Source: Burkholderiales bacterium
Lineage (GTDB): Bacteria; Pseudomonadota; Gammaproteobacteria; Burkholderiales; Burkholderiaceae_C
Reading direction: 5' to 3'
DNA: 64,000 nt
Assembly: GCA_028868825.1 (NCBI GenBank)
Contig: JAGWTU010000002.1
Coordinates: 62,001-126,000, forward strand
Positions 2,987 through 64,000 of the stretch are shown piece after piece; positions within the stretch are counted from its first letter, which is position 1; each line of letters starts with the position of its first letter. Made by a program: the position numbers and the translations under genes. Below the pieces are notes generated by a model, which saw only the letters and a program-made list of their open reading frames with translations, ran no database searches and was not told the origin of the DNA.

Positions 2987-4111
2987 ATGCTGATCCGCGC
3001 CGCCGTCCTCGAAGCCATCGGGGCACCCCCACCCTACGCGAGCAGCCTGCCGCTGCGCATCCGCGAGGTCGAGCTCGATCCGCCGGGGCCGGGCGAGGTG
3101 CTGGTGCGCATCCGCGCCGCCGGGCTTTGTCATTCCGACCTCTCGGTGATCTCGGGCGACCGGGCGCGGCCGGTGCCGATGGTGCTCGGCCATGAATCGG
3201 CGGGCGAGGTCGTCGCATGCGGCGCCGGCGTCGACGACCTCGCGCCCGGCGACCGCGTCGTGCTCGTCTTCATGCCCAGCTGCGGCTGCTGCGCGCCCTG
3301 CGCCGAGGGCAGGCCGGCGCTGTGCGAGCCGGGCGCGGCAGCCAACGGCGCCGGCACGCTGCTGTCGGGCCAGCGCCGGCTGCGCGCCGGCGGCGTCACG
3401 CTGAACCACCATATCGGCGTCTCCTGCTTCGCCGAGCATGCGGTCGTCTCGCGCCGCTCCTGCGTCAAGGTCGAGACCGACCTCAGCGACCGCGAGCTCT
3501 CGCTCTTCGGCTGCGCCGTGCTCACCGGCGCCGGCGCGGTGATCAACACGGCGCGCGTGCAGGCCGGCTCGACGGTGGCCGTCGTCGGCCTCGGCGGCGT
3601 CGGCTTCAGCGCCCTGCTCGCCGCGCTGGCCAGCGGCGCGCGCGAGGTCGTCGCGCTCGACCTGAATGCCGGCAAGCTGGCGCTGGCGCGCGAACTCGGC
3701 GCCACCGCGGCCATCGACGCCGGCGCCGCCGACGCCGCCGAGCAGGTGCGCGCGTTGACGCGCGGCGGCGTCGATTACGCCTTCGAGATGGCGGGCGCCG
3801 TGCCGGCGCTCGACCTCGCCTGGCGCATCACGCGCCGCGGCGGCAGCACGGTGACGGCCGGGCTGCCGCACCCCGATCGCCGCTTCCAGCTGCCGCCCGT
3901 GCAGATGGTGGCCGAGGAGCGCACGCTGCGCGGCAGCTACATCGGCTCGGCCGTGCCGATGCGCGACATCCCGCGCTACATCGACCTCTACCGCCGCGGT
4001 CGCCTGCCGGTGGACCGGCTGATGGGCGACACCTTGACGCTCGACGAGATCAACCGCGGCTTCGACCGCCTGGCCTCGGGAGACGCCCTGCGCGACGTGG
4101 TGATCTTCTGA
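2987..4111 (+). CDS. Zinc-dependent alcohol dehydrogenase, class III-like
   Basis: This 374-residue medium-chain dehydrogenase/reductase is expected to oxidise or reduce alcohols and aldehydes with NAD(H). The catalytic zinc ligands appear in GLCHSDLS (Cys) and LGHESAGEV (His-Glu). The structural zinc Cys cluster lies in PSCGCCAPCAEGRPALCEPG. The Rossmann motif is VAVVGLGGVGFSAL, followed by an acidic Asp in VVALDLN that favours NAD. The ATG at 2987 is preceded by an AGGAGA ribosome-binding site (2975-2980). It is divergent from the acyl-CoA dehydrogenase operon and may supply or remove its substrate, but no direct link is visible. It is close in architecture to the acryloyl-CoA reductase/benzyl alcohol group and its substrate is unknown. 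Confidence 0.9.
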   Translation: MLIRAAVLEAIGAPPPYASSLPLRIREVELDPPGPGEVLVRIRAAGLCHSDLSVISGDRARPVPMVLGHESAGEVVACGAGVDDLAPGDRVVLVFMPSCGCCAPCAEGRPALCEPGAAANGAGTLLSGQRRLRAGGVTLNHHIGVSCFAEHAVVSRRSCVKVETDLSDRELSLFGCAVLTGAGAVINTARVQAGSTVAVVGLGGVGFSALLAALASGAREVVALDLNAGKLALARELGATAAIDAGAADAAEQVRALTRGGVDYAFEMAGAVPALDLAWRITRRGGSTVTAGLPHPDRRFQLPPVQMVAEERTLRGSYIGSAVPMRDIPRYIDLYRRGRLPVDRLMGDTLTLDEINRGFDRLASGDALRDVVIF

Positions 4112-51089: not shown

Positions 51090-51195
51090 AGGTACCGCGA
51101 GGCGCCGGGCAAGCTGGCGCTCTTGGCTCTCTTGGTCGGTCTGCCCTGGGTCGACATCACGACCGACTTCGCCAAGCAATTCACAGCTATTGGCC
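51090..51195 (+). pseudogene. Relic of a GNAT acetyltransferase gene
   Basis: The plus-strand frame through 51090-51195 reads KLALLALLVGLPWVDITTDF. This matches the GLPWVEITTDVDN motif of the intact GNAT at 43049-43609 (nine of ten residues over GLPWV-ITTD, with close nucleotide identity). The rest of the domain is missing on both sides. It is most simply a decayed fragment, from the same family if not from that gene. Confidence 0.5.
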
Positions 51196-51287
51196 GTGAG
51201 CTGGCATTTCGTACTGGTATCCATAAGAATCGGATGGCAAACCATCCAAGAGGGAACCAGGAACCACGCAGTGGAAGGTCGCACCCG

Positions 51288-52643
51288 ATGACATCCGGGC
51301 ACCGGCAGTCGCCTGGCGTTCGCCCGGCCGCCACGGGGCCGTGGCCGGGCCTGGCGCCGCAAGCATCGGCGCGCCTGGCATGGATCGCCGCGCAGGCGCC
51401 GATCCTGTTCACGCTGCTCGTCCTCGTGCTGTTGGGCTGGGCGGCGGTGACCATCGCCTCCGACCTCGTGACGGTGGCGCACATCGAGGACCGGCAACTG
51501 CCCAAGCTCGAACTGATCCAGGAGGCGAAATACGCCGACCTCGTCGCCAGCGTCGCGCTAGGCCAGGCCGTGATGGCACAGGACCGGGCCCAGGCCCGGG
51601 ACTCGGTGGATCGCTACGCGGAGTTCGATCTGCGCGCGCAGCGGGCGCTCAGCCGCATCGAGGCGACCACGCGGGCCGAGGCCAACAAGGCCCGCGTCCG
51701 ATCGGTGCTGCAGGCGCACGACGCGCTGCTGGCCGCTCGGGGCCGCGTGCTCATGACGCTGCAGGACCCGTCCGGCGCCCCGCTGCAGGACGCGCAGACG
51801 AAGGCCCTCGATACGACCCTGAACGCCTACCTCGCCCGCCTGCAGGTGCTCTACGACGCCGAATCCAGGAACGTGGGCAAGGGCATCGCCGATGCGCTGG
51901 TCAAGACGATGCGTGCGCGCGGCCTCGTCGCGCTGGCCGGCGTGCTGGCGCTGCTGGCGGTGCTGCAGCAGCTGCGGGTCCGCTTTCGCGCCGCCCGGGA
52001 ATCGGTCGCGCGCAAGGACCGCGAGATCGAGGTCCTGCAGCGGCAGCGCGACGGCCTCGTGCGCGAGGTTCATCACCGCATCAAGAACCACTTGCAGGGC
52101 CTGCTGACGCTGATCGAAGGCGGCGCCGCCGGCGATCCGGCCGCGGCCGCTCCGCTGCAGACGCTCGAAGGCCATGTGCTGGCGCTGATCAACGTGCATG
52201 GCCTGCAGGCCGGGTCCGGGCCCGCCGGCGGCGGCGCGATCTCGCTGCGCGAACTCGTGGCCAACCAGCTGCCGCTGATCGAGGCCAGCTTCCCGTCGAC
52301 CACCGTGAAGCTCGATGCGGCCGCCGACACGCAGGCCCTGCTCGACAGCGACCAGGCGGTGCCGGTGGCGCTGGCGGTCACCGAGCTCATCGTCAACGGC
52401 CTCAAGCATGGCGTGGGCGCGCAGGTCGCGGTGGCGATCTCTAGCGGCGAGGGCCTGGCGGCGATCGCCATCACCAACCGCGTCGCGGCGCCGCCGGACT
52501 TCGACTGGGAACGACGCGTCGGTCTGGGCACGGGATTGCAGCTCCTCGCCTCGCTGCTGCTGGGCATCGGCCGCATCGACCAGGGCCCGAACCCGCCCGG
52601 CGAGCTGACGATGACGATCCATCTCGAGACGGCCCGCGCCTAG
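51288..52643 (+). CDS. HisKA_2 (HWE-like) sensor histidine kinase
   Basis: This 451-residue inner-membrane sensor has two transmembrane helices (APILFTLLVLVLLGWAAVTI and GLVALAGVLALLAVLQQLRV) enclosing a helical, four-helix-bundle-like periplasmic domain of about 140 residues. A coiled coil leads to the HisKA_2 dimerisation domain, with the phospho-acceptor His in REVHHRIKNHLQGLLTLIEG. The ATPase has the N-box AVTELIVNGLKHGV and a G-box-like GLGTGLQLLASLL. HisKA_2 kinases often pair with ANTAR regulators; one follows 7 bases downstream. The ATG at 51288 is preceded by GGAAGG. The signal is unknown; the divergent receptor operon is a candidate target. Confidence 0.9.
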   Translation: MTSGHRQSPGVRPAATGPWPGLAPQASARLAWIAAQAPILFTLLVLVLLGWAAVTIASDLVTVAHIEDRQLPKLELIQEAKYADLVASVALGQAVMAQDRAQARDSVDRYAEFDLRAQRALSRIEATTRAEANKARVRSVLQAHDALLAARGRVLMTLQDPSGAPLQDAQTKALDTTLNAYLARLQVLYDAESRNVGKGIADALVKTMRARGLVALAGVLALLAVLQQLRVRFRAARESVARKDREIEVLQRQRDGLVREVHHRIKNHLQGLLTLIEGGAAGDPAAAAPLQTLEGHVLALINVHGLQAGSGPAGGGAISLRELVANQLPLIEASFPSTTVKLDAAADTQALLDSDQAVPVALAVTELIVNGLKHGVGAQVAVAISSGEGLAAIAITNRVAAPPDFDWERRVGLGTGLQLLASLLLGIGRIDQGPNPPGELTMTIHLETARA

Positions 52644-52650
52644 CCCGACC

Positions 52651-53232
52651 ATGGCCCGCATCCTCCTCGTCGAAGACGATGCCCTCGTGCGGCATGGCAT
52701 CTCGCGCATGCTGGTCGCGGCCGGTCACGAGCTGCGCGTCGCGTCGCGCGGCGCCGCCGGCGTCGACGAGGCGGCCTTGTTCGATCCGCAACTCGTGGTG
52801 CTCGATGTCGGCCTGCCCGACTTCGACGGCATCGAATGCGCGCGGCGGCTGCGCGCGGCGCGCTATGCGGGCCCGATCGTCTTCCTGACCGCCGACGGCA
52901 GCCCCGACACCGTGCGCGCCGCCATCGGCCTGGGCGCGCATTCGTACATGGTCAAGCCGATCACCGGCACGCAGTTGCTGCCCGTCGTGCTGACCGCGCT
53001 GGCGGCCGCCGACGCGGCGCACGAGCGCGAGCGGCGGATGCAGACCGCGCTCGACGACAGCCGTCGCATCAGCGCCGCCGTCGGCGTCCTCGCCGAACGC
53101 CATGGGACCTCGACCACCGCGGCCTTCGAGCTGCTGCGCGGTCGGGCCCGCGGACGCTCGCAGAAGGTCAGCGCCGCCGCCGAGGAAGTGCTGTCGCGGG
53201 TCGAGCAGGCGCCCGGCGAAACGCCGGGATAG
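52651..53232 (+). CDS. Response regulator with ANTAR RNA-binding domain
   Basis: This 193-residue protein has an N-terminal receiver domain with phospho-acceptor Asp52 in VVLDVGLPDFDG, the acidic pair EDD at 8-10, and Lys102 in YMVKPI. The C-terminal ANTAR domain reads DSRRISAAVGVLAERHGTST, AAFELLRGRARGRSQKVSAA. ANTAR regulators relieve transcription termination by binding paired hexaloop RNA hairpins. It is the cognate partner of the preceding HisKA_2 kinase. Its RNA target was not found within the window. Confidence 0.92.
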   Translation: MARILLVEDDALVRHGISRMLVAAGHELRVASRGAAGVDEAALFDPQLVVLDVGLPDFDGIECARRLRAARYAGPIVFLTADGSPDTVRAAIGLGAHSYMVKPITGTQLLPVVLTALAAADAAHERERRMQTALDDSRRISAAVGVLAERHGTSTTAAFELLRGRARGRSQKVSAAAEEVLSRVEQAPGETPG

Positions 53233-54951: not shown

Positions 54952-57900
54952 TCAGGCGGACGCGCGCAGCACGATCAGCAGGTCCTTGGCGCTGACGCGG
55001 TCGCCGGGGCCGACGAGCACTTTCTCGATCTCGCAGTCGCGCTCGGCCGCGATGTGGGTCTCCATCTTCATCGCCTCGAGCGCGACCAGCGGGCTGCCCG
55101 CGCGCACCTTCTGCCCCGCCTTCACCGGCACCGAGACGATGCCGCCGGGCATCGGCGCGGCGACGTGCAGCGGGTTGCCGGGCTCGGCGACGGGGCGCTT
55201 GGCGGCCGACTTGGCGCCTGCCGCGGCGTCGCGGGCCTCGTCGACATGGACGGTGCGGCTCTGGCCGTTGAGTTCGAACTGCAGCCGGTGGCTGCCGCTC
55301 TCGGCATCGCGCTGCAGCGCCTGCAGCGTGACGAGCAGCGTCTTGCCGGGGTCGATCTCGATCGAGAGCTCGTCGCCGAGGTGCAGGCCGTAGAAGAAGG
55401 CCGGCGTCGGCAGCACCGAGGTGTCGCCGTAATGGCGGCGATGCTCGAAATACTGCTGCGTCACCTTCGGGTACATCAGGTACGAGGCGAGCTGGCGGTC
55501 GTCGAGCTTGACGCCGCAATCATGTTCGCCCTGCGCGCGCGCGGCCTCGAGGTCGACCGGCGCGATCTGCGCTCCCGGCCGGTAAGGCGCCGGCGGCTCG
55601 GCCTTCAGGATCTTGCGGCCGAGTTCGAGCGGGAAACCGTCGGGCGGGAAGCCGAGCTCGCCCTTGAACAGCGAGACCACCGATTCGGGGAACGCCATCT
55701 CGCGCGCCGGGTCGGCGACCTCGGCCGGCGTGAGGTCGTTGGCGACCATCATCAGCGCCATGTCGCCGACGACCTTCGACGTCGGCGTGACCTTGACGAT
55801 GTCGCCGAAGAGCTGGTTCACGTCGGCATAGGCGCGAGATACCTCGGTCCAGCGATGTTCGAGGCCCAGCGAGCGCGCCTGTTCGCGCAGGTTCGTGTAC
55901 TGGCCGCCCGGCATCTCGTGGCGGTAGACATCGGCGGTGCCCGAGCGGATCTCGCTCTCGAAAGGCGCGTAGTAGCGCCGCACGCCTTCCCAGTACATGC
56001 TGGCGCCGTGCAGCGCGTCGAGGTCGACGCCGGGGTCGCGTTCGCTGCCGGCCAGCGCCGCGGCGATGCTCGAGAGGTTCGGCTGCGAGGTCAGCCCGCT
56101 CATCGCGTCGAGCGCGCCGTCGACGGCGTCGCAGCCGGCGTCCACGGCGGCCAGCACCGACGCGGCCGCGATGCCGCTCGTGTCGTGGGTGTGGAAATGC
56201 ACCGGCAGCCCGGTCTCGGCCTTCAGCGCGCGCACGAGTTCGGCGATGGCGCGCGGCCGGCCGACGCCGGCCATGTCCTTGATCGCCAGCACATGCACGC
56301 CGGCAGCCTTGAGTTCGCGCGCGATGCCGAGGTAATAGCCGAGCGCGTATTTCGGCCGCGTCCTGTCGTGCAGGTCGGCCGTGTAGCAGATCGTGCCCTC
56401 GCACAGCGCGCCGCTGGCGAGCACGGCGTCGATCGCGACGCGCATGTTCTCGACCCAGTTCAGCGAATCGAAGACGCGGAACAGGTCGACGCCGCCGGCT
56501 GCCGCCTGCTCGACGAAGAAGCGCACGACGTTGTCGGCGTAGCTCGTGTAGCCGACGCCGTTGGCGCCGCGCAGCAGCATCTGGAAGATGACGTTCGGGA
56601 TCTGCGCGCGCAGCAGCGCCAGGCGCTGCCACGGGTCCTCCTTGAGGAAGCGCAGCGCGACGTCGAAGGTCGCGCCGCCCCAGCATTCGAGCGAGAACAG
56701 CTGCGACAGCGAGCGCGCGTAGTACGGCGCGATCGGCAGCATGTCGGCCGTGCGCATGCGCGTGGCCAGCAGCGACTGGTGCGCGTCGCGCAGCGTCGTG
56801 TCGGTGAGCAGCACCGGCTTGCTCTCGAGCATCCATTGCGCGAAGCGCGCCGGGCCGAGTTCGCGCAGGCGGTCGCGGCTGCCGGGCGGGATCGGCGCCT
56901 GCGCATCGACCTTCGGCAGCACCGGGCGCGGCAGCGGCAGCTCGGGCTGCCTGCGGCCCTTCATCTCGGGATGGCCGTTGACGGCGACCTCGCCGAGGTG
57001 GCGGAGCAGCCTCGTCGCGCGGTCGCGCCGGCGCGTGAAGGCCATCAGCTCGGGCGTGGTGTCGATGAAGCGCGTCGTCAGCTCGCCGGTGACGAAGGCC
57101 GGGTGGTTGATCAGGTTCTCGAGGAACAGCAGGTTCGACGCCACGCCGCGGACGCGGAACTCGCGCAGCGAGCGGTCCATGCGCGCGATCGTCTCGGCCG
57201 CGCTCGGCGCCCAGGTCGTGATCTTCACGAGCAGCGAGTCGTAGTAAGGCGTGATCACCGCGCCGCCGTAGGCCGTGCCGGCATCGAGCCGCACGCCGAA
57301 ACCGGCCGGGCTGCGGTAGGCCGTGAGGCGGCCGTAATCGGGCAGGAAGCCGTTGCTCGGGTCCTCGGTCGTGATGCGGCATTGCAGCGCATGGCCGTTC
57401 AGCGCGATGCGCTCCTGCGGGGGCACGCCGGCGGCGCGGCGGCCGCCTTCGTCCTCGAGCAGGCCGATATGGCCACCCTCGCTGATGCGGATCTGCGCCT
57501 TCACGATGTCGACGCCGGTGACCATCTCGGTCACCGTGTGCTCGACCTGGATGCGCGGGTTGACCTCGATGAAATAGAAGGCGCCGCTGTCGACGTCCAT
57601 CAGGAACTCGACGGTGCCGGCATGCGTGTAGTGCACCGCGCGCATCAGCCGCAGCGCGCTGTCGCACAGCGCGGAGCGCGTCGCGTCGTCGAGGTAGGGC
57701 GCCGGCGCGCGCTCGACGACCTTCTGGTTGCGCCGCTGCACCGTGCAGTCGCGCTCCCACAGGTGGACGACGTGGCCATGCTGGTCGCCGAGGATCTGGA
57801 CCTCGACATGGCGTGCACGCCGCACGAGCTTCTCGAAATACACCTCGTCGTTGCCGAAGGCGGCGAGCGCCTCGCGCCGCGCCGCGGCGAGCGCGGCCTC

Positions 57901-58446
57901 GACCTCGCCCTCGTTCTCGATCACGCGCATGCCGCGGCCGCCGCCGCCCCAGCTCGCCTTGAGCATCAGCGGGTAGCCGACACCGGCGGCCATCGCCAGG
58001 CAGCTCGCGAGGTCGGCCGGCAGCGGCGGCGTCGCCGGCATCACCGGCACGCCGGCGGCGACCGCCGCGTGCCGCGCCGCGACCTTGTTGCCCAACGTGC
58101 GCATGACCTCGGGCGTGGGGCCGATCCAATGCATGCCGGCGGCGATCACGGCCTCGGCGAAATCGGGGTTCTCGGAGAGGAAGCCGTAGCCGGGGTGGAT
58201 CGCGTCGACCTGGGCGGCGCGCGCGATGCGCAGGATGTCGGCTATGTCCAAGTACGCGGCCAGGGGCTTGCGGCCCTCGCCGACGAGGTAGGCCTCGTCG
58301 GCCTTGAAGCGGTGCAGCGCCAGCCGGTCCTCGCGCGAATGGATCGCGACGGTGCGGATGTGCATCTCGGACGCCGCGCGCATGACGCGGATGGCGATTT
58401 CGCTGCGGTTGGCGATGAGCAGCGATTTGATCTTCGTGGACTTCAT
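54952..58446 (-). CDS. pyc: Pyruvate carboxylase
   Basis: This 1164-residue biotin enzyme makes oxaloacetate from pyruvate, bicarbonate and ATP. Domains run in order. The biotin carboxylase starts LLIANRSEIAIRVMRAASEM and has WGGGGRGMRVIENEG and FFIEVNPRIQVEHTVTEM-like motifs. The carboxyltransferase has LLTDTTLRDAHQSLLATRMR and HFHTHDTSGIAAASVL. A C-terminal biotinyl domain has VALEAMKMETHIAAERDCEI with the biotinylated Lys. The length is standard for single-chain enzymes. It depends on biotin from the bio operon also in this window. The start ATG at 58446 has only a weak ribosome-binding site. Confidence 0.95.
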   Translation of the reverse strand: MKSTKIKSLLIANRSEIAIRVMRAASEMHIRTVAIHSREDRLALHRFKADEAYLVGEGRKPLAAYLDIADILRIARAAQVDAIHPGYGFLSENPDFAEAVIAAGMHWIGPTPEVMRTLGNKVAARHAAVAAGVPVMPATPPLPADLASCLAMAAGVGYPLMLKASWGGGGRGMRVIENEGEVEAALAAARREALAAFGNDEVYFEKLVRRARHVEVQILGDQHGHVVHLWERDCTVQRRNQKVVERAPAPYLDDATRSALCDSALRLMRAVHYTHAGTVEFLMDVDSGAFYFIEVNPRIQVEHTVTEMVTGVDIVKAQIRISEGGHIGLLEDEGGRRAAGVPPQERIALNGHALQCRITTEDPSNGFLPDYGRLTAYRSPAGFGVRLDAGTAYGGAVITPYYDSLLVKITTWAPSAAETIARMDRSLREFRVRGVASNLLFLENLINHPAFVTGELTTRFIDTTPELMAFTRRRDRATRLLRHLGEVAVNGHPEMKGRRQPELPLPRPVLPKVDAQAPIPPGSRDRLRELGPARFAQWMLESKPVLLTDTTLRDAHQSLLATRMRTADMLPIAPYYARSLSQLFSLECWGGATFDVALRFLKEDPWQRLALLRAQIPNVIFQMLLRGANGVGYTSYADNVVRFFVEQAAAGGVDLFRVFDSLNWVENMRVAIDAVLASGALCEGTICYTADLHDRTRPKYALGYYLGIARELKAAGVHVLAIKDMAGVGRPRAIAELVRALKAETGLPVHFHTHDTSGIAAASVLAAVDAGCDAVDGALDAMSGLTSQPNLSSIAAALAGSERDPGVDLDALHGASMYWEGVRRYYAPFESEIRSGTADVYRHEMPGGQYTNLREQARSLGLEHRWTEVSRAYADVNQLFGDIVKVTPTSKVVGDMALMMVANDLTPAEVADPAREMAFPESVVSLFKGELGFPPDGFPLELGRKILKAEPPAPYRPGAQIAPVDLEAARAQGEHDCGVKLDDRQLASYLMYPKVTQQYFEHRRHYGDTSVLPTPAFFYGLHLGDELSIEIDPGKTLLVTLQALQRDAESGSHRLQFELNGQSRTVHVDEARDAAAGAKSAAKRPVAEPGNPLHVAAPMPGGIVSVPVKAGQKVRAGSPLVALEAMKMETHIAAERDCEIEKVLVGPGDRVSAKDLLIVLRASA

Positions 58447-58590
58447 GACGGCTTCGGGATTCAGGTTCTCGTTCGATGAGGTTCCGCCGCAAGGCCTGTG
58501 CCAGCGCATGCGCCGGACCCTGCCGGACCGGGATCGATCGTCTCACGGCGGTGCAGGCCGCCCAAATCGGGGCAGCACCCGAGCGCCGGA

Positions 58591-59868
58591 CTAAGCCATC
58601 AGCACCTGCAGACTGTGCTCGACCGCCGCGGTCAGGCGCTCGAGCGTGCGCAGCTGCTGTTCACCGGCGCCGGCCAGCGCCGCGGCATCGCCGGCCCGCT
58701 GCGCGCGCAGCAGCGCGAGCCAGCCTTCGCGCGCCTCGGCCTGCGCGGCGCGGATCTCGGGCGACGTCAGCGGCGCGGCCTCGATCGCCTGCTGCACGCG
58801 CTCGTAATCGGCGAGCGCGAGCTGCAGCTGCTCGGCGCGATCGGCACGCGGCGCCAGCCGGTCGAGCAGCGCCTGCTTGACCAGGCGCTGCGTGCGCATG
58901 CGCTGGCTGCCGCAGAGGTTGACGATGGCCAGCGCGCGCGCAGCGCCGCCGGCTTCGAGCGCGGCGGTGAGGCGGTCGGCGGCCTGCAGCAGACCCTCGG
59001 CGCGCGTATCGATCGCCTCCAGCGTCGTGAGGTCGAGCCGCAGCGCCAGCGCCAAGCGCAACGACTCCCAGGCCACGGTGACATCGCGCAGCGCCGCCGC
59101 GGCATCGGCATCGAGCCCGCTGCCGCCATGGCCGCCGGAACAGCCGAGATGGTCGAGGTTGTCGAGCAGCCGTTGCACGGCCTCCTGCTGGCGCCGACGC
59201 GCGCCGGCGGCGTCGATGCGCGCCAGCCGCTGCGCCGCCTGCGCGACGAGGCGCTGCGAGAGCATGCGCAGCTGCCCGGCGCGGTTCACCGCGTCGGCGC
59301 GGCGCGCGGCGTCGACGACCGAGCGCGCGACATCGGCCAAGCGCAGATTGGCATCCATCGCGGCGCCGCGCAGCAGCCTGTAGGCGCCGTCCTCGTCGAG
59401 GCTGCGCGCGGCCATCAGCAGGCCCTTGGCGCGGTCGATCCAGATGCGGTCGTCGATCTGCGCGCGCAGCGCCGCGATCTCTCCGCGCAGCGCGGACTCG
59501 CGCCGATGGCGCGCCGCGGCAGCGGCGAGCAGCGCCGGCAGCACGGCGGCGGAGGGCAGCTCGAGCCAGCAATCGGCCCCGGCGCGGCCGAGCGCGGCGG
59601 CCTGCGCGGCGTCGATGCCGGGCGCGATCACCGACAGCGCGTGCGTGGGGACGAGCGCGAGCAGCGGCGCGATGTCGCCGCCGCGCGGCAGCTGGCAGAC
59701 GAACTGATGCGGTGCACCGGACGCCGCATCGCGCACCAGGCTGATGCAATCGACGACCGCGACGACCTCGGCGCCGGCGTTCTCGAGCCGCTCGCCCAGC
59801 GCTTGCGCAGCGGCCGGCGTGTCGGCGCAGGCGACGACGCGCAGAGGGCCATCACGGTCCTTGTCCAT
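58591..59868 (-). CDS. NasR/NasT-like ANTAR regulator with PilJ/NarX-type P-box domain
   Basis: This 425-residue cytosolic regulator has three parts. Residues 1-125 are receiver-like but lack a clear phospho-acceptor Asp (FVCQLPRGGD). Residues 127-187 form an ANTAR domain (RIWIDRAKGLLMAARSLDED, GAYRLLRGAAMDANL). Residues 190-425 are helical, PilJ-like, with two P-box motifs: AVNRAGQLRMLSQRL (193-207) and IVNLCGSQRMRTQRL (315-329). NarX and NarQ bind nitrate with a similar P-box. It should be a one-component, nitrate-responsive antiterminator, functionally like Klebsiella NasR but with ANTAR placed N-terminally. It is divergent from narK, whose leader carries the matching RNA target. Confidence 0.85.
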   Translation of the reverse strand: MDKDRDGPLRVVACADTPAAAQALGERLENAGAEVVAVVDCISLVRDAASGAPHQFVCQLPRGGDIAPLLALVPTHALSVIAPGIDAAQAAALGRAGADCWLELPSAAVLPALLAAAAARHRRESALRGEIAALRAQIDDRIWIDRAKGLLMAARSLDEDGAYRLLRGAAMDANLRLADVARSVVDAARRADAVNRAGQLRMLSQRLVAQAAQRLARIDAAGARRRQQEAVQRLLDNLDHLGCSGGHGGSGLDADAAAALRDVTVAWESLRLALALRLDLTTLEAIDTRAEGLLQAADRLTAALEAGGAARALAIVNLCGSQRMRTQRLVKQALLDRLAPRADRAEQLQLALADYERVQQAIEAAPLTSPEIRAAQAEAREGWLALLRAQRAGDAAALAGAGEQQLRTLERLTAAVEHSLQVLMA

Positions 59869-59916
59869 GCCCGCGAGCTTAGCCGCGTGGCGTCGCCGGC
59901 GCCGGCGACGCGACGC

Positions 59917-59932
59917 GGGCACGCCGCTTGCA
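59917..59932 (+). promoter_or_regulatory. Sigma-54 (RpoN) promoter for the narK/nitrate locus
   Basis: GGGCACGCCGCTTGCA matches the -24/-12 consensus TGGCAC-N5-TTGCA except the first base. GG at 59918-59919 and GC at 59930-59931 are exactly ten bases apart. Transcription would start near 59943, right at the first ANTAR hairpin. This suggests NtrC-controlled expression under nitrogen limitation. The call is by eye. Confidence 0.75.
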
Positions 59933-59943
59933 ACGCGAAGCCT

Positions 59944-59988
59944 GCGGTGTAACGACGCACCGCCGCAGTGAAGCGCCACCGCTGGCGC
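59944..59988 (+). ncRNA. ANTAR target RNA (paired hexaloop hairpins) in narK leader
   Basis: Two hairpins stand in tandem. P1 pairs GCGGTGT (59944-59950) with GCACCGC (59957-59963) around hexaloop AACGAC. P2 pairs GCGCC (59973-59977) with GGCGC (59984-59988) around hexaloop ACCGCT. Both loops have A at position 1 and G at position 4, the conserved bases of ANTAR targets, and are joined by 9 bases. A terminator hairpin follows at 60004. Binding of the divergent ANTAR/P-box protein would stabilise P1-P2 and allow read-through into narK. Confidence 0.8.
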
Positions 59989-60003
59989 CCGTCCCACTGA
60001 AAA

Positions 60004-60022
60004 CAAGCGCCGCGCGCGCTTG
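60004..60022 (+). terminator. Leader attenuator hairpin before narK
   Basis: CAAGCGC (60004-60010) and GCGCTTG (60016-60022) form a 7-bp stem with loop CGCGC, followed by GTTGCCATTT. It lies 16 bases after the second ANTAR hairpin and 72 bases before the narK start, the position of the attenuator in ANTAR-controlled leaders. Confidence 0.65.
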
Positions 60023-60093
60023 GTTGCCATTTCGCCAACCCCCGTGATCGCCGCGGCGCAGCCGTGGCCGTCCATCCACCTCAGGGATCCGCC

Positions 60094-61368
60094 ATGTCCG
60101 AATTCAAGACATTCATCCGCTCCGGTCATTGGCCGACCCTGGCGGCCTCGTTTCTCTATTTCGATTTCACGTTCGCGATCTGGGTGCTCAACGGCGCGAT
60201 GGGGCCGTTCATCAGCGAGTCCTACGGGCTGAATGCGGCGCAGAAGGGATTCATGATCTCGGTGCCGATCATCGCCGGCGCGCTGATGCGCTTTCCGCTC
60301 GGGCTGCTGTCGCAATACATCGGCCGCAAGAACGCGGCGCTGGTCGAGATGGCGCTCATCGTCGCCGCGCTGGCCTTCGGTTTCTATTTCGTCCACAGCT
60401 ACGACAGCGTGCTCGCGATGGGCGTGCTGCTGGGCATCGCCGGCGGCAGCTTCGGCGTCGCGCTCTCGCTCGGATCGGGCTGGTTCCCGCCGAAGTACAA
60501 GGGGCTGGCGATGGGCATCGCCGGCGCCGGCAATTCGGGCACCGTGCTCGCCGTGCTGTTCGCGCCGCCGCTGGCGCAGCATTACGGCTGGCAGACCGTC
60601 TACGGCCTGGCCGCGCTGACGATGCTGCTGCCGATGGTCGTGATGGCGATCGCCGCCAGGGAGCCGCCCGACCGCGAACAGCAGACGCTGCGTGAGCATC
60701 TGTCCTGCCTGTTCGAAAAGGACGGCTGGGCCTTCAGCCTCATCTACGTCATCACCTTCGGCGGCTTCATCGGCCTGGCGAGCTTCCTGCCGACCTATTT
60801 CCACGACCAGTTCGCCGTCACCAAGATCCAGGCCGGCCAGCTGACGATGCTGGCGACGCTGATGGGCAGCGCCGTGCGCGTCGTCGGCGGCTATGTCGCC
60901 GACCGCATCGGCGGCATCAACACGCTCTCGGGCGTGCTGCTGCTCGTCGCGCTGACGCTGACCGGTTGCGGCTTCATGGGCCATTCGCTGGCGCTGACGA
61001 CGCTGCTGTTCATGCTCTGCTTCGCGGCCCTCGGTGCCGGCAACGGCGCGCTGTTCCAGCTCGTGCCGCTGCGCTGGCCGCTGACGACGGCCGTGGCCGG
61101 TTCGATGATCGGCGAGATCGGTGCGCTCGGCGGCGGCTTCCTGCCGAACGCGATGGGGCAGTCCAAGCAGCTCAGCGGCAGCTATCTCTACGGCTTCCTC
61201 GCCTTCACGCTGCTGGCGCTGGCGATGCTGATCATGCTGCGCTGGGTGCAGATCCGCTGGACGCGCACCTGGGACGAGAAGGGTGGCCGCGCGCGCGCCG
61301 ATGCACCGCGCGTGGCGAACGACCCGGCCTACATGCCTTCGGCCGCCGCGCCGCGCAGCGCGAGCTGA
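60094..61368 (+). CDS. NarK/NasA-type nitrate/nitrite transporter
   Basis: This 424-residue major facilitator has 12 helices and the nitrate/nitrite porter signatures: AGALMRFPLGLLSQYIGRKN in helix 2 and following loop, GIAGAGNSGTVLAVLFAPPL in helix 5, and ALGAGNGALFQLVPLRWPLT in helix 11. The Arg in MRFPLG corresponds to the substrate-binding Arg of NarK. It brings nitrate into the cytosol for assimilation. AGGGA precedes the ATG. The leader with sigma-54 promoter and ANTAR target predicts control by nitrogen limitation and nitrate. It could also be called nasA. Confidence 0.92.
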   Translation: MSEFKTFIRSGHWPTLAASFLYFDFTFAIWVLNGAMGPFISESYGLNAAQKGFMISVPIIAGALMRFPLGLLSQYIGRKNAALVEMALIVAALAFGFYFVHSYDSVLAMGVLLGIAGGSFGVALSLGSGWFPPKYKGLAMGIAGAGNSGTVLAVLFAPPLAQHYGWQTVYGLAALTMLLPMVVMAIAAREPPDREQQTLREHLSCLFEKDGWAFSLIYVITFGGFIGLASFLPTYFHDQFAVTKIQAGQLTMLATLMGSAVRVVGGYVADRIGGINTLSGVLLLVALTLTGCGFMGHSLALTTLLFMLCFAALGAGNGALFQLVPLRWPLTTAVAGSMIGEIGALGGGFLPNAMGQSKQLSGSYLYGFLAFTLLALAMLIMLRWVQIRWTRTWDEKGGRARADAPRVANDPAYMPSAAAPRSAS

Positions 61369-61393: not shown

Positions 61394-63100
<1,707 letters not shown>

Positions 63101-63144
63101 CGCCGCATTGTCGCCAGTGCGGCCCTGCACCAAGGAAGATACGC

Positions 63145-64000
63145 ATGAAGAAAGCCCAACTCGTCCTCGTCGGCAACGGCATGGCCGGCGTGCGCACGCT
63201 CGAGGAGCTGATCCGCATCGCCCCCGATCTGTACGAGATCACGGTGTTCGGCGCCGAGCCGCATCCGAACTACAACCGCATCCTGCTGTCGCCGGTGCTC
63301 GCCGGCGAGCAGCGGATCGACGAGATCATCCTCAACCCGTTGTCCTGGTACGCGGAGAACGGCATCACGCTGCACAAGGGCACGAAGGTCGATCGCATCG
63401 ACCGCATCCACCGCCGCGTCATTGCCGCCGACGGCACCGAGTGCGCCTACGACCGCCTGCTGATCGCCACCGGTTCGAACCCCTTCATCCTGCCGGTGCC
63501 GGGCCGTGACCTGGAAGGCGTGATCGGCTACCGCGACATCGCCGACACGCAGGCGATGATCGCCGCGGCCGAGAAATACCGCCACGCGGTCGTCATCGGC
63601 GGCGGCCTGCTCGGCCTCGAGGCCGCGCATGGCCTGCTCAAGCGCGGCATGCAGGTCACCGTCGTCCACATCATGCCCTGGCTGATGGAGCGCCAGCTCG
63701 ACGACGTGGCGGCCAGGATGCTGCAGAAATCGCTCGAGGAGCGCGGCATCCGCTTCCTCATCGGCGCGCAGACCGACAGCCTGATCGGCGGCGAGGACGG
63801 AAGGGTGATGGCCGTGCGCTTCAAGGACGGCAGCGAGATCCCGGCCGACCTCGTCGTGATGGCCGCCGGCATCCGTCCGAACACCACGCTGGCCGAGGCC
63901 GCGGGGCTGCATTGCCAGCGCGGCATCGTCGTCAGCGACACGATGCAGACCGTCACCGACCCGCGCATCTACGCCGTCGGCGAATGCGCGAGCCATCGCG
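63145..64000 (+). CDS. nirB: Assimilatory nitrite reductase large subunit NirB (partial, C-terminus outside window)
   Basis: The first 285 residues are visible. They form an FAD/NAD(P)H pyridine nucleotide-disulfide oxidoreductase domain: LVLVGNGMAGVRTLEELIRI as the FAD Rossmann motif, YNRILLSPVLAGEQ, LLIATGSNPFILPVPGRDL, VVIGGGLLGLEAAHGLLKRG as the NAD(P)H motif, and TDPRIYAVGECASH. The full protein (about 800 residues or more) adds a [2Fe-2S] and sirohaem/4Fe-4S module that reduces nitrite to ammonium. The ATG has an AAGGAAG site. It follows narK functionally but has its own start region next to the kinase gene. Confidence 0.93.
   Translation, partial: MKKAQLVLVGNGMAGVRTLEELIRIAPDLYEITVFGAEPHPNYNRILLSPVLAGEQRIDEIILNPLSWYAENGITLHKGTKVDRIDRIHRRVIAADGTECAYDRLLIATGSNPFILPVPGRDLEGVIGYRDIADTQAMIAAAEKYRHAVVIGGGLLGLEAAHGLLKRGMQVTVVHIMPWLMERQLDDVAARMLQKSLEERGIRFLIGAQTDSLIGGEDGRVMAVRFKDGSEIPADLVVMAAGIRPNTTLAEAAGLHCQRGIVVSDTMQTVTDPRIYAVGECASHR

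Follow-up and report, generated by a model that had tools for sequence, protein, structure and literature searches.

A putative one-component nitrate riboregulator with its sensor C-terminal to ANTAR, and a conserved hexaloop leader upstream of narK, in a Burkholderiales bacterium

The region considered here is part of a window, i.e. the whole stretch of 64,000 nucleotides that was analysed (contig JAGWTU010000002.1, positions 62,001 to 126,000, of a Burkholderiales bacterium; assembly GCA_028868825.1). In it, a gene for a putative RNA-binding regulator with ANTAR and PilJ domains and the gene narK, for a nitrate/nitrite transporter, are divergent across a gap of 225 bases. This gap contains a sigma-54 promoter motif and two hairpins, P1 and P2, whose six-base loops have A at position 1 and G at position 4 (A1/G4 hexaloops), and nirB is located beyond narK (Table 1). 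A first-pass annotation, made from the sequence alone, had described this arrangement as a complete nitrate antitermination switch ending in an attenuator. The word complete goes beyond the evidence because the attenuator could not be established.

The regulator, which had been presented as distinct, is not a single case. A homologue search yielded 565 proteins at E values of 1e-10 or less, and the best 120 of these 565 all carry both ANTAR and PilJ domains. From the genome collection at least 79 loci were listed, 49 of which (L004–L052) carry this family and 30 (L053–L082) a NasT-type protein; by the names of their records they are mostly from Burkholderiales, with a few alphaproteobacteria (e.g. 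L033 and L044). The alignment of the family comprised 43 members that are 31–93% identical to the query; the regulator frame of L006 is seemingly broken and that of L051 reaches its contig end. In the window protein, PilJ was matched by Pfam in two stretches (1.1e-13), and residues 1–130 had no Pfam match at E values up to 1. In a comparison with proteins of known structure, a family profile of 25 rows matched Rv1626 (residues 6–190) and EutV (residues 10–187), i.e. a receiver followed by ANTAR, and AmiR likewise; the same profile separately matched McpN (E 0.0009) over two boxes and, weakly, NarX (0.035) and NarQ (0.83), again over two boxes. The first-pass description of a degenerate receiver, an ANTAR domain and a PilJ region thus proved correct. 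The receiver is thus a pseudo-receiver in nearly all members: where the phospho-acceptor Asp would be expected, the window protein has Gln59, and of 43 members two (L029 and L050) have Asp and 24 have Trp, Tyr or Glu. The predicted model of the sensor part shows a double four-helix-bundle fold similar to that of NIT domains, and the Pfam NIT domain itself had no match on this protein at E values up to 1.

The sigma-54 motif upstream of narK has GG and GC elements separated by 10 bases, as had been noted previously, with consensus flanks. Its 14-base core occurs once in the 64 kb, compared to 0.62 occurrences expected by chance, and hence it is the conserved place of the motif and not the motif alone that is significant. 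Transcription from sigma-54 promoters starts about 12 bases after the C of the −12 element. Because the +1 was placed on this basis, P1 is predicted to begin one base after it, so that the putative start is located just upstream of P1 and not after the hairpins, in agreement with the first-pass annotation. Orthologous leaders were scored by a rule that called for the sigma-54 motif and an R1/G4 hexaloop hairpin of at least five pairs, the loop starting 14–24 bases past the motif. The motif was found in 42 of 44 intergenic regions and the motif together with P1 in 41 of them, while shuffled sets averaged 2.35 and 0.05, respectively, and the reverse strand gave 6 and 0. Both of the hexaloop hairpins that had been claimed before narK were also confirmed, and shuffling of the 225-base region produced such a pair (P1 plus P2 type) in only 2 of 5000 cases, or 6 of 5000 on looser terms. 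When folding was started from the predicted +1 (59943), P1 formed with a probability of at least 0.92 at all four lengths tested. An Rfam scan of positions 59700–60300 detected no ANTAR-type family and gave three matches at chance level. Three weak matches to NtrC enhancers, about 185–217 bases upstream of the promoter motif, came from a search without a shuffle control and are not claimed as sites. For ANTAR-group genes, 66 predicted sigma-54 promoters have been reported, mainly from beta- and gammaproteobacteria (PMC12316311).

The P1 hairpins represent 28 distinct sequences, and many of the rows are close relatives from Variovorax. The check for covariation that the first-pass annotation had proposed gave 43 two-sided cells versus 17.5 in shuffles, with a score far above that of every slid register, and it supports the pairing of P1. 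Position 4 of the P1 loop is G in all 42 hairpins, in every one of them the closing pair is stacked on G-C, and each of the 13 loops that begin with G carries a U-G closing pair. Several observations weigh against the interpretation proposed below. Two measures that are affected less by kinship among the rows gave weaker results: six of eight pairs were changed on both sides, which 38 of 500 shuffles equalled, and 17 further pair types were seen, equalled by 14 of 500 shuffles. Of the 42 loops, 29 begin with A and 13 with G, and 35 are closed by U-G and seven by C-G, whereas in selection with NasR A1 and closure by C-G were preferred (PMC7496416). Motif and P1 were not found together in L006, which has a variant promoter, L020 and L030; the 14–24 base range was fixed after distances of 16–21 had already been seen; and the minimum-energy fold of positions 59936–60093 lacks P1 and is not unusually stable (z −1.35).

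Based upon these results, we consider it probable that the protein is a one-component regulator whose C-terminal tandem-PilJ region likely senses cytoplasmic nitrate, and which binds P1, and also P2 in leaders that have it, at the 5' end of the narK mRNA, thereby allowing transcription to read on into the narK and nirB genes. In this proposal, initiation at the sigma-54 promoter would be driven by NtrC (genes for both RpoN and NtrC are present), nitrate would bind between the two bundles of the C-terminal sensor and release the ANTAR domain, and the freed protein would then be expected to bind P1, with P2 where it occurs, at the 5' end of narK. Premature termination would thus be prevented and RNA polymerase would continue into narK and nirB, which may be carried on one transcript.

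In the window the dual-hexaloop arrangement is present. The P2 hairpins of the window and of G012 share a GCGCC/GGCGC stem, enclosed by a CAGTG/CACTG helix, and differ in their A1/G4 loops (ACCGCT and AACGAC, respectively). Among relatives, P1 alone is general: a second A1/G4 hairpin within 80 bases was found in just 13 of 43 leaders (compared to 2.2% of shuffled tails) and in two of four leaders of the genus, with none in G021 and G058. Conservation of the hexaloops in orthologous leaders, the lack of which would have refuted the first-pass annotation by its own account, therefore holds for P1, and the second hexaloop is limited to a clade. The attenuator that it had placed before narK probably corresponds to the hairpin at 60004–60022, which we rejected as an intrinsic terminator of narK since its terminator-like character is confined to the minus strand (tail TTTTCAGTGG), its tail on the narK strand being GTTGCCATTTCG; no terminator with a T-run was found on that strand. 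Read on the minus strand from 60022 to 60004, the same hairpin has a TTTT tail and points towards the regulator gene, where it perhaps stops antisense transcription. A looser search did accept a terminator candidate in the window; however, 25% of shuffles passed it too, and candidates of this kind were seen in 21 of the 43 leaders, whose sequences are related. The long hairpin that excludes P2 is not supported as a conserved switch, because P2 dropped to at most 0.05 with 36 of 300 shuffled tails (0.052 with the real one) and this hairpin is absent in L086.

These findings lend some weight to the possibility, which we regard as less probable, that the same sensor and RNA target are used for something other than classical antitermination, with binding at the 5' end controlling Rho access, RNA stability or the translation of narK. 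Besides the lack of an intrinsic terminator found on the narK strand, the second A1/G4 hairpin stays formed (p ≥ 0.8) at every length tested in seven of 11 relatives followed, P2 is absent from many leaders that keep P1, and Mycobacterium tuberculosis is said to have ANTAR targets that depart from the dual-hexaloop motif (PMC8934654). On the other hand, a hairpin with a CTTTTT or TTTTT tail is located 21–33 bases before narK in the relatives L004, L007, L009, L039 and L051, and NasR and EutV work by antitermination (PMC3369936, PMC7496416). Termination in the narK leader could be intrinsic, with a weak U tract, or could depend on Rho.

The sensor boxes bear on the assignment of nitrate as the signal. 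The two NarX-like P-box motifs reported by the first-pass annotation were found at residues 194 and 316, and the protein combines the Pfam PilJ domain with GxxR cores, and the residues G198, R201, G320 and R323 that form these cores are invariant in the 43 aligned members. Both boxes are plain in 46 of the 49 loci; the exceptions are L015 and L018, in which the two GxxR cores are kept, and L040, which is truncated ahead of box 2. The published N-box reads [IVL]-[ND]-x-A-G-x-Q-R-M-L-[ST]-Q (PMC6381276), and the window boxes agree with it at 11 and 10 of 12 positions, neither being exact. This deviation, at one and two positions, leaves some room for a signal other than nitrate (e.g. nitrite only, or redox), but such a signal appears unlikely to us in view of the invariant cores, the exact N-box in nine of the 43 members, and adjacent genes for nitrate transport and nitrite reduction. 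N-box PilJ domains have been noted in transcriptional regulators generally, and ANTAR is unmentioned in the main text of that source (PMC6381276). Our search of the PMC papers available to us found no paper on a receiver-ANTAR-PilJ regulator; Figure 1 of PMC3369931 lists 17 ANTAR architectures, so an earlier sighting is possible.

The association between regulator and leader was also examined by gene order and in related genomes. The regulator is divergent from narK or nirB in 42 of the 49 family loci; L026, L033, L035, L037, L043, L044 and L045 are without this arrangement in the stretch covered, and in L026, L035, L037 and L043 the promoter motif and a hexaloop are located upstream of the regulator. 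L037 contains two family regulators (at 3221 and 7509) and as many sigma-54/hexaloop leaders, one being near nirB, and L020 (10001–12399) has two family regulators in tandem with the standard P1 absent. Among 120 genomes picked as relatives, including our own, the motif-plus-P1 pattern is present in G000, G012, G021 and G058 (the reversed-pattern control gave 0 in the rows listed) and the regulator, at E values of 1e-20 or less, in G000, G012, G021 and G071 (Fisher p 6e-5, uncorrected for kinship). Regulator and leader are about 3 kb apart in G021. The regulator of G071 is cut by a contig end at the expected site of the leader, and the leader of G058, which narK follows, is on a contig of 3,008 bases at a distance of 398 bases from its end; the bases before this leader encode, in the divergent direction, the start of a pseudo-receiver (best family match 1e-8) that is again cut by the contig end. 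The system is sporadic within the genus, as few of the 120 related genomes carry the regulator or the leader.

The genome that contains the window has three ANTAR matches, viz. the regulator, a receiver-ANTAR protein and, more weakly matched, one on C76; no NasR is present among these three, the match on C76 not having been examined. The second of them is encoded at 52651–53232, about 6 kb away, beside a histidine kinase of the HWE/HisKA_2-like type that scored under the Pfam cut-offs (51123–53232 together). As a cognate regulator it was rejected, since the pair is not conserved beside the family loci: a search of L004–L052 gave four weak matches, all of them to the family regulator. That the leader is targeted by such another ANTAR protein, with the adjacent regulator acting elsewhere, is thus very improbable, for although three ANTAR matches are available in this genome and the promoter-plus-hexaloop plan is common to NasT-type leaders, P1 of this class has its own closing signature and the regulator and leader occur together across the 120 genomes.

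In regard to its origin, a NasT-type protein can be aligned from end to end with residues 9–188 of the regulator (38% identity, 2e-21), and for this reason the protein is best read as a NasT-like core to which a C-terminal, NIT-like tandem-PilJ sensor was added. In a tree of the receiver-ANTAR part with 74 rows, 43 family rows were separated from 30 NasT-type rows by a branch with support of 99/94; the remaining row, the window receiver-ANTAR protein, formed a long branch, and the root is a midpoint only. The NasT-type loci resemble ours in having a pseudo-receiver and ANTAR and, by reading, in the sigma-54 motif and hexaloop leaders at similar spacing (14 of 30 loci). However, the NasT chain stops after ANTAR and receives its signal from NasS (PMC3795266), whereas the regulator has about 236 more residues that form its sensor. 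EutV of Enterococcus faecalis is phosphorylated by EutW (PMC8934654), whereas here Gln replaces the acceptor and a single chain includes the sensor as well. With McpN, NarX and NarQ, whose sensor domains carry the PilJ, N-box or P-box features, the regulator shares a four-helix bundle with a GxxR box; in NarQ and NarX, and similarly in McpN, the nitrate site is formed between two chains (PMC8199190), whereas the regulator has two boxes in one chain and its sensor is joined to an RNA-binding domain.

NasR was the one-component nitrate antiterminator with a solved structure that our comparison found. The nasF leader of Klebsiella oxytoca, whose promoter is of the sigma-54 type, belongs to a system that likewise combines a nitrate-sensor module and ANTAR in one protein, an A1/G4 P1–P2 leader and nitrate assimilation genes, and the sensor halves share the double four-helix-bundle fold in the predicted model. 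However, in NasR a NIT domain is followed by ANTAR without any receiver, whereas in the regulator the pseudo-receiver and ANTAR precede the tandem PilJ; the regulator also lacks a Pfam NIT match, is 8% identical over the sensor, and has a leader without a clear poly-U terminator. The opposite order was confirmed by Pfam in two tested NIT-ANTAR proteins, one from Variovorax (L004, 14592–15878) and one from Hydrogenophaga (L042, 17840–19120), with NIT scores of 185–187 bits. The first-pass claim of a distinct architecture, with NasR order reversed, therefore stands; its view of the protein as NasR with an added receiver-like module does not, as the core appears to be of the NasT type. The opposite order, different sensor sequence and NasT-derived core suggest that ANTAR came under nitrate control on more than one occasion. 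The off state of NasR is explained by NIT-ANTAR contacts (PMC7496416). A family with the reversed order allows one to ask which contacts of this type are essential.

Within the stretches covered, nine of 17 Variovorax loci (L004, L007–L010, L014, L016, L017 and L041) and L042 also encode, on the opposite strand, a second ANTAR protein of about 420–430 amino acids with an LQRERG motif. In all nine Variovorax loci, and not in L042, a sigma-54 motif comes after this NasR-type gene, with one or more A1/G4 hexaloop hairpins; in most cases this is a second hairpin, 45–48 bases on, and a first hairpin conforming to our rule was found in addition only in L008 and L016, that of L016 being G1. In L004 the next genes are nrtABC-like (the first by Pfam NMT1_2, the other two named by eye). 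In a manually compiled set of 17 NasT/NasR-type first hairpins, all 17 are closed by C-G and one has G-C as the next pair. We tentatively suggest, as an idea that is somewhat less likely than not, that one-component nitrate riboregulators arose in a second lineage, assembled independently from a NasT core and a C-terminal NIT-like sensor, and that this family uses an RNA code of its own. The mark of this code would be a P1 close to the promoter in which an invariant G-C pair carries U-G or C-G as the closing pair, as distinct from the NasT/NasR hairpins with their C-G closure. A single Variovorax nas cluster could then contain two insulated switches, nrtABC being controlled via NasR and narK–nirB via the reversed family. 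The contrast in closing pairs makes the RNA specificity of ANTAR proteins directly testable in genomes with both classes.

Table 1. Positions of the features in the window, with the strand and the basis of each assignment
Feature	Position	Strand	Basis or remark
Regulator, 425 amino acids: pseudo-receiver, ANTAR, tandem PilJ	58591..59868	minus	Pfam, family profile, predicted model
Pseudo-receiver, residues 1–125; Q59 where phospho-acceptor Asp would sit	59494..59868	minus	Alignment (acceptor place by eye), predicted model
ANTAR domain, residues 133–185	59314..59472	minus	Pfam 6.4e-17
PilJ four-helix bundle 1, residues 177–306	58951..59340	minus	Pfam and predicted model
PilJ four-helix bundle 2, residues 310–424	58597..58941	minus	Pfam and predicted model
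P-box 1, residues 194–206, VNRAGQLRMLSQ / VNRAGQLRMLSQR	59251..59289	minus	Motif comparison
P-box 2, residues 316–328, VNLCGSQRMRTQ / VNLCGSQRMRTQR	58885..58923	minus	Motif comparison
Sigma-54 −24/−12 promoter motif GGGCACGCCGCTTGCA; GG and GC exactly 10 bases apart	59917..59932	plus	Predicted +1 near 59943
P1 hairpin GCGGTGT-AACGAC-GCACCGC, A1/G4 hexaloop AACGAC, closed by U-G	59944..59963	plus	Folding, covariation
P2 hairpin GCGCC-ACCGCT-GGCGC, A1/G4 hexaloop ACCGCT, closed by C-G	59973..59988	plus	Folding
Outer helix predicted to extend P2, CAGTG / CACTG	59966–59970 / 59995–59999	plus	
Alternative long hairpin excluding P2 (predicted), tail CATTTCG; doubtful attenuator	59965..60027	plus	Folding
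G+C-rich hairpin, probably the attenuator of the first-pass annotation	60004..60022	plus	T-run on minus strand
narK, nitrate/nitrite transporter of the major facilitator superfamily	60094..61368	plus	TIGR00886 232 bits, under cut-off 311.7
nirB, nitrite reductase large subunit; continues past the window	63145..63999	plus	Rest of the gene, past the window: TIGR02374 923 bits

In regard to the neighbouring genes, the locus L083 contains, downstream of nirB, a nirD-like frame (named by eye) followed by a molybdoenzyme that matches models for formate dehydrogenase and assimilatory nitrate reductase below their cut-offs, and which was taken for nasA because of its place. A gene for a fusion of a PP2C phosphatase and a Ser/Thr kinase (61394–63133) is convergent to narK, and by our own count such a gene is present in 38 of the 49 family loci. 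On the other side, a gene for pyruvate carboxylase (54952–58509) adjoins the regulator gene on the same strand, and in G071 (L094) the two likewise lie side by side.

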